Below are positions 44,341 to 47,962 of a stretch of DNA of 64,000 bases, one piece after another; the first letter of the stretch is position 1; the number at the start of each line of letters is the position of its first letter. Below the pieces are notes generated by a model. The model was not told where the DNA came from, did no database searches, and was given only the letters and a program-made list of their open reading frames with translations. The DNA lies in the NCBI GenBank assembly GCA_022574595.1, contig JACZRS010000007.1, positions 1 to 64,000 of the forward strand, in the 5' to 3' direction. This stretch comes from Planctomycetota bacterium. GTDB lineage: Bacteria > Planctomycetota > Phycisphaerae > Phycisphaerales > SM1A02. The position numbers were made by a program, and so were the translations under genes.

Positions 44341-44372
44341 AAAAGACCGGCGATGCCATCGCCGGCTTTACA
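44341..44372. repeat. REP palindrome at the 3' end of the RAYT gene
   Basis: CCGGCGATG-C-CATCGCCGG (44347-44365), a 9-bp stem, followed by CTTTACAGG, overlaps the last codons of the transposase gene. The same unit in the opposite orientation lies just 5' of the gene (44923-44941). Confidence 0.85.
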
Positions 44373-44895
44373 GGGTTATGAATTTATATGGTTGGGCGAG
44401 TTGGTTGCGGCGTAAGTTATGCTTTTGGATGTATTGAATCAGATTCATCCAGTAGTCTTTATCAAAAACGTAACTGCACCAATATCCCTCACACCAAACT
44501 GGGCCAACGTGATCGGTTTGATTATGTACGGCCTTGGTTGTTTGTTGTGCGAGCCATTTTATGGTGCGTTTGATATCGAGGCCACTGTATGTGATGAGCA
44601 GGTGCACGTGCGTTGATTCGATACTCGCCGCAGCGATTTGCCACGGTGATGAAGATTCGCATTGATTGATCGCGTCAACAACGGCATCGATCATTGCGTT
44701 GTCGAGCCTAACCGGCTCGTGTTTCATGCGTTCGTTGGCCATGCGTTGGCGAACAGGATCGCCCGAATTGAGCGTATGTGGTTGCGTGTAACCGATCTGT
44801 TCATCCCAAGCTTGCGACCATGAACCACGATCATCGCCCGGCAGCCAAAGACCATAACCCGATTTAACATAGTGATATCCAAGCGTTCGTGGCAT
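44368..44895 (-). CDS. REP-associated tyrosine transposase (RAYT, IS200-like HUH enzyme)
   Basis: 175 residues. The Y1 transposase core is visible: STHVHLLI (the HUH pair His-x-His) and the catalytic Tyr in IQYIQKHNLRR, with GPVWCEGYWCSYVFD between. RAYTs nick single-stranded REP palindromes and spread them in the genome. Here the gene is bracketed by inverted REPs (44347-44365 and 44923-44941), and further REP pairs lie upstream. It is a single, apparently intact gene without insertion-sequence ends, as expected for a domesticated RAYT. Confidence 0.93.
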   Translation of the reverse strand: MPRTLGYHYVKSGYGLWLPGDDRGSWSQAWDEQIGYTQPHTLNSGDPVRQRMANERMKHEPVRLDNAMIDAVVDAINQCESSSPWQIAAASIESTHVHLLITYSGLDIKRTIKWLAQQTTKAVHNQTDHVGPVWCEGYWCSYVFDKDYWMNLIQYIQKHNLRRNQLAQPYKFITL

Positions 44896-45988: not shown

Positions 45989-46276
45989 TCGCTACAACAG
46001 CTTAATTCTACTATTTCTGTGTAAAGTCGGCGATGGTATCGCCGTGGTTCGGAGAAAAAAGCGTTAGTTAGCACGGCATTGACAGCCATTCACAAGGATA
46101 TCAACCGTATGATCGGACGCATGTCGCCGTTCGACCGGCGATGCCATCGCCGGCTTTACAGTGTGTGGATTTTTTTGAGCAGTGGAGCAGGTGATCAGGA
46201 GACCGCAGGTGAGCGGGCATTTTCTTTCACCTGCTCACCTGTCTTGTCTCGCCTGCTCTATTCGCCTTTGGCGAAT
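45989..46276. repeat. REP pair (BIME-like unit 2) and a long imperfect hairpin
   Basis: REPs at about 46019-46044 (GTAAAGTCGGCGATGGTATC, facing right) and 46135-46160 (CCGGCGATGCCATCGCCGG then CTTTACA, facing left) form a unit like that at 44917. After it, 46190-46260 folds into a long imperfect hairpin (GAGCAGGTGA ... AGGTGAGC, AGGTGAGC paired with GCTCACCT, and GTCTCGCCTGCTC). No gene is supported here. Confidence 0.7.
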
Positions 46277-46340
46277 CGGGCTGGTCCGCCTCAGGCGGAC
46301 GATCTGTCGCCTCAGGCGACCGCGCTAACTTAGCATATTG
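46277..46340 (-). pseudogene. tRNA-Pro remnant with both the T-arm and anticodon arm replaced by a palindrome
   Basis: Compared with the intact tRNA at 46591-46664, the edges CGGGCTGG and CGCGCTAAC are retained. The 15-base T-arm (GCGGATTCGAACCGC on this strand) is replaced by TCCGCCTCAGGCGGA, also 15 bases. The anticodon arm is replaced by GTCGCCTCAGGCGAC. The D-arm end is degenerate. It lies at the 3' end of the GIY-YIG gene, overlapping its stop codon. A third copy of the palindrome (TTCGCCTTTGGCGAA) sits immediately before it at 46261-46275. Confidence 0.65.
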
Positions 46341-46585
46341 TCTAGGCACTCACGTCCCTTACCGGATTTTAAGAACAATTCTCGCTTAACAGCTTCGGAG
46401 CGGGATGGAAAAGCTTCAGTAGTATAAACGAGTCTCCACGGCCGACCCGCGCGAGTCGATTTGGAATGACCAGCGTTATGTCGAGATAAACGAATATTTA
46501 CATCTTTGGTAGAGCCAACGTAGCGCCGACCGGATGTTTCGCTTCGTAATACATAAACGCAAAAGCAACTATTTTCTGCATTAGT
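46325..46585 (-). CDS. GIY-YIG nuclease-superfamily protein abutting tRNA-Pro
   Basis: 86 residues from the TTG at 46585. The GIY-YIG motifs are present: VYVLRS (for GIY), RYVGSTKD (for YIG), the catalytic Arg in NIRLSRHNAG and Glu in EAVKRELFLKS. Single-domain proteins of this UPF0213/YhbQ type are common; some act on DNA, but the role is unclear. The open frame continues upstream through the whole 3' part of the tRNA gene, so a start inside the tRNA (SDWGSEGRRFESAQP) would be an artefact. The gene begins 6 bases after the tRNA 3' end, has no ribosome binding site or room for a promoter, and is probably expressed from the tRNA transcript after 3'-end processing. Confidence 0.85.
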   Translation of the reverse strand, partial: TNAENSCFCVYVLRSETSGRRYVGSTKDVNIRLSRHNAGHSKSTRAGRPWRLVYTTEAFPSRSEAVKRELFLKSGKGRECLDNMLS

Positions 46586-46590
46586 CAAAT

Positions 46591-46664
46591 CGGGCTGGGC
46601 GGATTCGAACCGCCGACCTTCTGACCCCCAGTCAGACGCGCTAACCAAGCTGCGCTACAGCCCG
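46591..46664 (-). tRNA. tRNA-Pro (GGG anticodon)
   Basis: 74 bases with acceptor stem CGGGCTG/CAGCCCG, D-arm GCGCAGCTTGGTTAGCGC, anticodon arm TCTGA-CTGGGGG-TCAGA (anticodon GGG) and T-arm GGCGG-TTCGAAT-CCGCC. All stems pair. CCA is not encoded. Three degenerate copies lie upstream and one downstream. Confidence 0.96.
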
Positions 46665-46700
46665 TGTGTGGGATTAGTTAGTCCCACTCAATACTATCAA

Positions 46701-46772
46701 GGCTGTTGGCAGATTCGAACCGCCGATCTGTCGCCTTAGGCGACCGCGCTAACCAAGCTGCGCTACAGCCCG
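46701..46772 (-). pseudogene. Degenerate tRNA-Pro copy (108-bp tandem repeat, unit 1)
   Basis: 72 bases. The 5' half (CGGGCTGTAGCGCAGC, D-arm) is identical to the intact tRNA. The anticodon arm is replaced by GTCGCC-TAA-GGCGAC, which gives no seven-base anticodon loop. The T-stem is weakened (GGCGG/CTGCC), and the 3' acceptor strand is AACAGCC instead of CAGCCCG. Confidence 0.85.
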
Positions 46773-46808
46773 TGTGTGGGAATAGTTAATTCCACCCAAT
46801 ACTATCAA

Positions 46809-46880
46809 GGCTGTTGGCAGATTCGAACCGCCGATCTGTCGCCTTAGGCGACCGCGCTAACCAAGCTGCGCTACAGCCCG
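46809..46880 (-). pseudogene. Degenerate tRNA-Pro copy (108-bp tandem repeat, unit 2)
   Basis: Nearly identical to unit 1 at an exact 108-bp offset. The 36-base spacer (TGTGTGGGA..AGTTA..TCCCA, ending ACTATCAA) is also repeated. Anticodon arm replaced by the same GTCGCCTTAGGCGAC palindrome. Confidence 0.85.
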
Positions 46881-46916
46881 TGTGTGGGATTAGTTAGTCC
46901 CACTCAATACTATCAA

Positions 46917-46988
46917 GGCTGTTGACGGATTCGAACCGCCGATCTGTCGCCTTAGGCGACCGCGCTAACCAAGCTGCGCTACAGCCCG
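46917..46988 (-). pseudogene. Degenerate tRNA-Pro copy (108-bp tandem repeat, unit 3)
   Basis: The third unit at the same 108-bp period. It keeps the palindrome in place of the anticodon arm; the T-stem differs slightly (GGCGG/CCGTC). Nothing in it could read a codon. Confidence 0.85.
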
Positions 46989-47003
46989 TGAGAGAAGAAG
47001 CAT

Positions 47004-47070
47004 TCAGCTATCAGCCTTCAGCTCTCAGCTTTTTTTCTGGCTGATCGCTGACCGCTGACTGCTGACAGCT
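47004..47070. repeat. GCTGA/TCAGC mini-repeat forming an inverted repeat
   Basis: TCAGC units (TCAGCTATCAGCCTTCAGC...) are followed, after a T-run, by inverted GCTGA units (GCTGATCGCTGACCGCTGAC...). A shorter copy (GGTCAGCTATCAGCTATCAG) follows the ubiD gene at about 55946-55966. It lies between tRNA-Ser and the tRNA-Pro array. Confidence 0.7.
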
Positions 47071-47080
47071 TTACTAAAGC

Positions 47081-47167
47081 GGACAGGGTGGGATTCGAAC
47101 CCACGGTACGTAAAAAACGCACACAGCATTTCCAGTGCTGCTCCTTCGGCCACTCGGACACCTGTCC
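47081..47167 (-). tRNA. tRNA-Ser (GGA anticodon)
   Basis: 87 bases with a long variable arm (TGTGCGTTTTTTACGTAC region), as expected of tRNA-Ser. Acceptor stem GGACAGG/CCTGTCC, anticodon loop CTGGAAA (GGA), T-arm GTGGG-TTCGAAT-CCCAC. The divergent truB gene starts 25 bp away. Confidence 0.95.
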
Positions 47168-47191
47168 AATTATACGACCTAGTGTATACCT

Positions 47192-47962
47192 ATGGCTCGA
47201 TCGAACAAACCGCCTAGACCAAGCACCTGCGGGGTACTCATACTCGACAAACCTTTGGGCATGACATCTATGTCAGCGGTGGCGGCGGTTCGATCAAGAG
47301 CTGGCGGCCCCAGAACCGGGCACGCAGGTACGCTTGACCCTCTCGCAACAGGCGTCTTGGTCATTGCTATGGGAAAAGCAACCAAGCAAATCGAAAAATT
47401 CATGGCCACTACCAAGCGTTACTTAACAACTGTGGACTTAAGCGCATTTACAAATACAGATGATCTGGAAGGTGAGCGGACAGAAGTACAAGTTACAAAG
47501 CTGCCTACACAAAAAGATATTGCGGATGTCTTGCCACAATTTATGGGCAGGATAATGCAACGGCCTCCAGCCCGCAGCGCGATCAAGATCGATGGTCAGC
47601 GTGCCTACAAACTCGATCGCGCTGGCGTGAAGGTAGAGATTCCACCTAGGCCGATTGAAATCTTTGATCTACAAGTCCGCAGTTACGAGTGGCCATTATT
47701 AGATTTATATGTTCATTGCGGTAAAGGAACATATATCCGAAGTTTAGCGCGGAATATTGGCGAAGCGCTTGGCACGGGAGGCCACTGCAAATCAATTCGC
47801 AGAACAGCGGTGGGTCCATTTACTATTGAAAATGCACAGCAGCTTGATGATGTGCCTCAGCCTTTAACTGAAGCTGACCTAATTTCACTTGATGATGCGT
47901 TAGAACTTTTAGATTTTGTTAATCAAATCGGTCAAGCTTCGTCAAGAACAGATTCACCTTGA
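47192..47962 (+). CDS. truB: tRNA pseudouridine-55 synthase
   Basis: 256 residues. It makes pseudouridine at position 55 of the T-loop of tRNAs. Family signatures are GVLILDKPLGMTS, the catalytic Asp in GHAGTLDPLATGVLV, GKATK, and CGKGTYIRSLARNIGEALG. It lacks the C-terminal PUA-like extension of longer members. Its 3' end overlaps the convergent lspA gene by 31 bp. Confidence 0.96.
   Translation: MARSNKPPRPSTCGVLILDKPLGMTSMSAVAAVRSRAGGPRTGHAGTLDPLATGVLVIAMGKATKQIEKFMATTKRYLTTVDLSAFTNTDDLEGERTEVQVTKLPTQKDIADVLPQFMGRIMQRPPARSAIKIDGQRAYKLDRAGVKVEIPPRPIEIFDLQVRSYEWPLLDLYVHCGKGTYIRSLARNIGEALGTGGHCKSIRRTAVGPFTIENAQQLDDVPQPLTEADLISLDDALELLDFVNQIGQASSRTDSP

Follow-up and report, generated by a model that had tools for sequence, protein, structure and literature searches.

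A small GIY-YIG nuclease gene at a planctomycete tRNA-Pro gene, bordered by tRNA copies whose arms are replaced by short hairpins

In the genome of a Planctomycetota bacterium (assembly GCA_022574595.1), a small GIY-YIG nuclease gene lies among surplus copies of tRNA-Pro in which whole arms have been exchanged for short hairpins. The exchange of hairpin for hairpin is genuine and is found in several phyla; in the cases examined, the tRNAs concerned are extra or damaged copies with an intact tRNA next to them. Sequence comparison gives good support to the locus being an insertion, with relatives carrying the empty site. What was inserted is probably a small mobile element that has a free-standing GIY-YIG nuclease as its core and uses tRNA genes as its site, in a manner analogous to the homing of the phage enzyme SegB. 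The window is the whole stretch analysed, the first 64,000 nt of contig JACZRS010000007.1. The genome it belongs to (4.09 Mb) is called G000; other genomes carry G numbers and loci L numbers.

Read along the minus strand, the locus has tRNA-Ser(GGA), 90 nt of spacer, three pseudo-tRNA-Pro copies, an intact tRNA-Pro(GGG), the GIY-YIG open reading frame (ORF) and a 3' piece of tRNA-Pro. The features are:

47192-47962, plus strand: synteny anchor, a gene that we take to be truB-like from the appearance of its protein
47079-47167, minus strand: tRNA-Ser(GGA), syntenic neighbour (ARAGORN; synteny in relatives)
46916-46988, minus strand: pseudo-tRNA-Pro copy 1, hairpin at 46946-46960 (period analysis, Rfam tRNA, relatives)
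46808-46880, minus strand: pseudo-tRNA-Pro copy 2, hairpin at 46838-46852 (period analysis, Rfam tRNA)
46700-46772, minus strand: pseudo-tRNA-Pro copy 3, hairpin at 46730-46744 (period analysis, Rfam tRNA)
46590-46664, minus strand: intact tRNA-Pro(GGG) (ARAGORN; Rfam tRNA, 66.9 bits)
46325-46588, minus strand: GIY-YIG nuclease ORF, 87 aa (Pfam PF01541, E 3.8e-16 over 46325-46570)
46276-46329, minus strand: 3' tRNA-Pro piece (read from sequence)
46200-46275, minus strand: native tRNA-Pro 3' flank with a hairpin at 46261-46275, now abutting the 3' piece (comparison with L361)

Nothing but the nuclease gene, overlooked in the first-pass annotation, separates the intact tRNA from the 3' piece. 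It appears from the sequence to start at a TTG one base beyond the 3' end of tRNA-Pro, and its stop codon, TAG, falls within what is left of the D stem in the 3' piece. Since this gene sits inside the array, the locus is better described as an insertion than as the property of one palindrome. The predicted protein has a GIY-YIG domain with the conserved catalytic-type residues, and its match to PF01541 and its place in our alignment A1 put it in the family. Residues Y10, Y21, G23, R31, H35 and E68 are invariant in A1; we take their role to be of the catalytic type. Profile A1 matches the window protein at E 8e-37, the protein being itself a member of A1.

In all three pseudo copies the 17-nt anticodon arm TCTGACTGGGGGTCAGA has become the 15-nt GTCGCCTAAGGCGAC, in sense (minus) orientation, and the units follow one another at an exact period of 108 bp, as first described. 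The units are not strict repeats; compared with the reference unit, their identities are 97% and 99%. The 3' piece consists of the D-stem 3' strand, a hairpin (46306-46320) in the place of the anticodon arm, AGATCG, a second hairpin (46285-46299) in the place of the T arm, and the acceptor 3' strand. Both arms of this fourth copy are thus replaced as claimed, by GTCGCCTGAGGCGAC and TCCGCCTGAGGCGGA respectively, but the T arm has 17 nt and not the 15 nt first given. A supposed free copy of the palindrome, TTCGCCTTTGGCGAA at 46261, is present; it is most likely a hairpin native to the region after tRNA-Pro, as L361 has a different one, TTGCCGCGGAGCGGCAA, at that position ahead of the same flank.

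The palindromes are not random. CGCCTNAGGCG occurs five times in the window, where 0.08 copies would be expected, and none of 100 shuffles reaches five, which excludes the chance frequency that would have undone the first-pass claim. Across G000 there are 11 copies of it and 6 of the reversed control; for TCGCCTNAGGCGA the corresponding figures are 8 and 1. The genome-wide search that had been suggested places seven of the eight TCGCCTNAGGCGA sites within tRNA-like sequence at three tRNA genes: four at the Pro(GGG) gene of the window, two by tRNA-Ala(GGC) and one by tRNA-Pro(TGG). The two arm-swapped Ala copies lie 72 bp apart and score 16.9 bits each, under the Rfam tRNA threshold. Neither the Ala(GGC) nor the Pro(TGG) copies adjoin a GIY-YIG gene, and the only small GIY-YIG gene found in G000 is that of the window. 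TCGCCTNAGGCGA was also searched in 61 genomes; among the 22 loci of relatives that were read, none has an arm swap and one (L028) overlaps a tRNA, in the acceptor stem of Phe, probably by chance as far as the sequence tells. A general pattern, a tRNA with a 15-nt arm and one mismatch allowed, was abandoned; it matched 301 of 301 genomes, and the rows shown were largely real tRNAs out of register.

The three pseudo copies score 38.5, 35.3 and 35.3 bits as tRNA, above the Rfam gathering score of 29, and the one that was folded gave a cloverleaf. Such figures would suit arm-swapped tRNA-like molecules that are made and processed as decoys, sponges or regulators of the nuclease, as would the persistence of the hairpin while its sequence varies among relatives. 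We consider functional small RNAs of this kind improbable: many of the pieces are incomplete, with no acceptor 5' strand, no D arm or no T arm, and the near-identity of the window's three units leaves no room for a judgement of conservation.

The truB-like protein, present in 54 of 61 genomes of the family, yielded 30 loci, 29 of them from relatives. Both tRNA-Ser and tRNA-Pro(GGG) lie by the gene in 23 of the 29; one or both are absent in the other six, two of which are short stretches. The gap between the two tRNAs is 4-118 nt in 21 of the 23 and 909 and 930 nt in the remaining two. An extra 5' copy of tRNA-Pro was found in 0 of these 23 relatives, and 21 of them have no extra copy at all. 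The relatives thus have ordinary tRNA genes here, as the first-pass annotation had envisaged; it would have taken this as the sign of an assembly artefact, and we read it as an empty insertion site. In L361, tRNA-Pro joins directly to the DNA found after the window's 3' piece (TAGAGCAGGCGAGACAAG... following a hairpin), and pseudo copy 1, 90 nt past tRNA-Ser, occupies the position of the genuine tRNA-Pro in relatives. From these arrangements it follows that the two outermost copies, both with hairpin arms, now adjoin the native flanks, and that the working tRNA has become internal. The site of the window element is uninterrupted in relatives that lack the element.

Extra 3' copies occur in the two remaining relatives, L377 and L370. 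L377, from the same family as the window, has a GIY-YIG gene at tRNA-Pro and a 3' copy with GTCGCCTGTGGCGAC for its anticodon arm. Its intact tRNA-Pro still stands 105 nt after tRNA-Ser, and so has lost at most its 3' flank, which is now at the hairpin-armed copy. In L370 (G025), tRNA-Pro is followed by tandem long units, each with a T-arm/acceptor fragment of tRNA-Pro; the L370 contig has no A1 match at 1e-10.

The nuclease belongs to a family that is often linked to tRNA genes. Two sets of GIY-YIG rows were compiled. The host set (81 rows) comes from regions of genomes that hold the palindrome; the second set, from other Patescibacteria, covers 29 loci outside G318 and 40 regions, the best by E-value, with weaker matches outside the sample. 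A tRNA lies on the same strand within 300 nt in 51 of 81 host-set rows and in 49 of 72 rows of the second set, against 2 of 81 and 1 of 72 on the opposite strand; the 72 rows are 69 distinct genes, so that a few genes (e.g. L264 and L294) are counted twice in this tally and in that of broken copies. At 300-600 nt the counts are 4 and 3, and 30 of 81 and 23 of 72 rows are without a same-strand tRNA within 300 nt. A broken copy of the linked tRNA accompanies 20 of 51 linked rows in the host set and 24 of 49 in the second, with 0 in the reversed-sequence null. Of 69 genes followed by a tRNA, 19 (10 of 33 and 9 of 36 in the two sets) use the tRNA's own TAG, at tRNA positions 8-10, as the nuclease stop. 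Small GIY-YIG proteins occur in 41 of 59 sampled Patescibacteria genomes. In the window's own order they are patchy (an A1 match at 1e-10 in 18 of 151 genomes), and for 12 of 20 proteins examined there, no tRNA lies within 300 nt on the same strand.

The 103 tRNA-linked genes adjoin 19 isotypes. Their tree requires 66 isotype changes, against a mean of 77 (minimum 70) in 500 shuffles, which indicates some fidelity to the isotype and yet many switches; 165 proteins were kept for this work after those under 60 aa, containing stops or identical to others had been dropped. The window nuclease clusters with L339, L340, L341, L377 and a Patescibacteria gene, L249 (local support 94, from few columns). 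Five of the six members lie by tRNA-Pro; the sixth, L340, has no ARAGORN tRNA in its locus but does have a Pro-like 3' piece. The window protein matches no phage family in PHROGs and has no match in PADLOC.

Hairpins are also found where other tRNA copies break. Of the breaks, 16 of 38 (host set) and 16 of 46 (second set) bear a perfect hairpin with a stem of at least 6 bp, compared with 45 of 1921 control positions, the control pooling both sets and using the upstream-type test only. These counts leave out loci without a near tRNA and repeats, and take multiple breaks in one locus separately. The hairpins differ widely in sequence, many have 15 nt (6 + 3 + 6; e.g. TCCCGACCGCAGTCGGGA and TCACGCAGAGCGTGA), and they are located at the D loop, the anticodon arm or the T arm. 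There is only a modest preference for the T-loop position, where 8 of 43 upstream pieces end and 7 of 20 downstream pieces start. Among pieces that span the anticodon arm and were not found via the palindrome, a hairpin is present at eight loci (L256, L281, L291, L312, L339, L341, L342 and L377, from the second set and the window's order) and the native arm at one (L255, a 5' piece), a tally that leaves out rows classed as 'other' (four each in sets A and B, two in set C), which are partly chance matches within the nuclease gene and partly broken arms. The genomes of set A were chosen for holding the palindrome; sets B and C alone are unbiased for hairpin type.

The relatives of the window nuclease show the exchange most clearly. 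L339, L340, L341 and L377 have hairpins of other sequences at the same place of the 3' piece as in the window. In L339, L341 and L377 the 3' copy matches the T arm and acceptor of its own genome's tRNA while the anticodon arm is GCCGCCGCGGCGGC, GTCGCCGCGGGCGAC or GTCGCCTGTGGCGAC; in L340, GCCGCCTGGGGCGGC stands in that place. A CGCC...GGCG hairpin core is common to 6 of 6 members of the group, the hairpin of L249 covering only the 5' half of the arm. The fit is not always exact, as the hairpin occupies part of the arm, splits it or extends it in L249, L256, L281 and L342, and the upstream piece of L341 has no perfect hairpin.

The match of T arm and acceptor beside a differing anticodon arm in L339, L341 and L377 also bears on whether these pieces are ordinary att-site remnants, left by integrases at tRNA genes and later decayed. 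Remnants of that type may well exist in G000, where 3' tRNA fragments of Thr, Lys, Met, Val and Arg share 93-100% identity over the stretch that runs from the anticodon arm to the 3' end. For the loci discussed here, however, the differing arm, together with the fact that the GIY-YIG ORF alone separates tRNA-Pro from the 3' piece in the window, makes such an origin very improbable. Fragments of the integrase-left kind were seen in G000 at C2:37085, C15, C25, C9 and C5 (L065-L071). An integrase island at a tRNA site was likewise rejected for the window: the unaltered 3'-end repeat is absent from the far border, where the 3' piece has both arms replaced.

The plan of the locus is found well beyond the Planctomycetota. 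A scan of genome contigs returned 21 stretches with the palindrome in the anticodon-arm position, from Omnitrophota, Planctomycetota, Patescibacteria, Chloroflexi, Bacteroidetes and unassigned bacteria, and 11 of the 21 have a GIY-YIG ORF of the window's family. The fullest form consists of a 5' piece, the GIY-YIG gene, an intact tRNA and a 3' piece, with a hairpin in both pieces (L117, L119, L125, L127, L131). In L125, by reading, the acceptor strands of the two outer pieces match each other and do not match the inner tRNA. Viral contigs gave no match to two palindrome-tRNA patterns. Profile A1 found two loci on them; L387 has the plan, with TCCGCCTCAGGCGGA, and L388 not clearly. The nuclease gene of L387 lies between direct repeats of about 40 bp derived from a tRNA 3' half, with TCCGCCTCAGGCGGA in the arm of the right repeat.

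The hairpins also occur in the absence of the nuclease. G331 has 20 palindrome sites, partly away from tRNAs, and a hairpin-laden, arm-swapped tRNA-Lys copy, with no A1 match at 1e-10. A mini-palindrome resembling GGTCGCCTNAGGCGACC is scattered over its loci L318-L336; by eye, some of the copies seem to lie inside the loop of a larger hairpin. The copies in G331 and those by Ala and Pro(TGG) in G000 indicate that hairpin swapping needs no resident nuclease. Counts of the palindrome and of GIY-YIG genes do not track each other over 59 genomes, 29 of which have a palindrome site (G349 has 11 GIY-YIG genes and 0 palindromes), and the idea of the palindrome as the nuclease's obligate partner was dropped on this ground. 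The substitution described in the first-pass annotation is real, but CGCCTNAGGCG, to which it had been ascribed, is only one of many hairpins and is found away from tRNAs as well.

Observations of this sort raise the alternative that the hairpins are independent selfish mini-palindromes that enter hairpin loops, with tRNA duplicates a mere landing place and the link to GIY-YIG genes incidental to the hairpins. The many GGTCGCCTNAGGCGACC-like sites of G331 fit such behaviour, and so do the hairpins that occupy D loops and T loops or split the arm in L281 and L342. It is harder to reconcile with the concentration of TCGCCTNAGGCGA in tRNA copies of G000 (seven of eight sites), with the repeated exchange of arm for arm in copies that otherwise match their tRNA (L339, L341, L377), and with hairpins at breaks far above the local control. 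We consider it rather unlikely.

Other known systems resemble the locus in part. No intron family matched 46000-47300 up to E 1, and the group I intron endonuclease model TIGR01453 gave 21.4 bits against a cut-off of 56.05, which disposes of a group I intron with a GIY-YIG gene. REP/RAYT and the palindromes of Volvox organelles are similar in being short and dispersed; they are other palindromes, whereas here hairpins replace the arms of tRNA copies. REP/RAYT was rejected for the window because the nuclease of the array is of the GIY-YIG type and the nearby Y1 ORF has its own CGGCGATGCCATCGCCG repeats, not these palindromes. That ORF, like a REP-associated transposase, lies 1.4 kb away at 44368-44895 (PF01797; NF047646 under its cut-off); CGGCGATGCCATCGCCG repeats bound it and recur between 44345 and 46173. 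Among solved structures, the closest sequences are UPF0213 proteins, which match profile A1 at E 1.3e-15 (PDB 1zg2) and 3.9e-12 (1ywl). Ssn nucleases act on single strands at a repeated genomic sequence. Unlike UPF0213 and Ssn, the window family has linkage to tRNA genes and tRNA duplicates.

The closest parallel is SegB of phage T6, a GIY-YIG enzyme that cuts inside tRNA genes at the motif RAWTSGAAC (PMC13096335). In our reading, the reverse complement of this motif, GTTCSAWTY, resembles a T loop. SegB adjoins tRNAs of many isotypes, its cleavage drives tandem duplication of nuclease and tRNA by recombination, and the segB 3' end shares microhomology with the 5' region of the tRNA (PMC13096335). 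The chromosomal family is like SegB of the T-even phages in lying beside tRNA genes of many isotypes, and its nuclease gene often ends inside the tRNA, which may be compared with the microhomology. It differs in being on bacterial chromosomes, in its mostly ~80-110-aa proteins (that of the window without a PHROGs match), and in the surplus tRNA copies with hairpin-swapped arms, a feature absent from the available account of SegB (PMC13096335).

The SegB-like homing that we favour could proceed as follows; the target of the nuclease and the reason why arms turn into hairpins are the parts that we infer. The nuclease would cut tRNA genes as SegB does, and repair from a copy of the element would duplicate some of the tRNA sequence around the nuclease gene, with one working tRNA retained. 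The recognised site may span the tRNA body and a native flank. If so, every remaining copy would be safe, since none has arm and flank together: where the flank is kept the arm is gone, and where the arm is kept the flank is gone. The palindromes, which are short and often of 15 nt, would come from a dispersed pool of mini-hairpins, settling in or replacing the stem-loops of copies that are not under selection as tRNA. Their fixation might be due to selection against dead tRNAs that compete, or against re-cutting.

A bolder proposal, which we offer tentatively, is that these loci are tRNA-targeting nuclease elements found across phyla that protect themselves by a 'split immunity', the hairpin swap being built into the insertion and not a product of decay. 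The copy with the native flank would have its anticodon arm overwritten by a mini-hairpin. The copy that keeps its arm would be severed from the flank and would still work as a tRNA, its first bases often encoding the last codons and stop of the nuclease.

A search of the open-licence literature turned up neither small GIY-YIG genes located at tRNA genes of bacteria nor tRNA copies with arms swapped for hairpins, and a passage of PMC12455944 makes no mention of tRNA. The loci described here give the small GIY-YIG proteins a genomic context, in that most examined rows from Patescibacteria (49/72) lie by a same-strand tRNA, and they would widen the link between SegB and tRNA from phages to the chromosomes of bacteria in several phyla. 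They may also provide a candidate answer to a question left open in the SegB paper, that of how the enzyme spares its own genome (PMC13096335). Finally, they make available many natural examples of hairpin-for-hairpin exchange in copies of structured genes.
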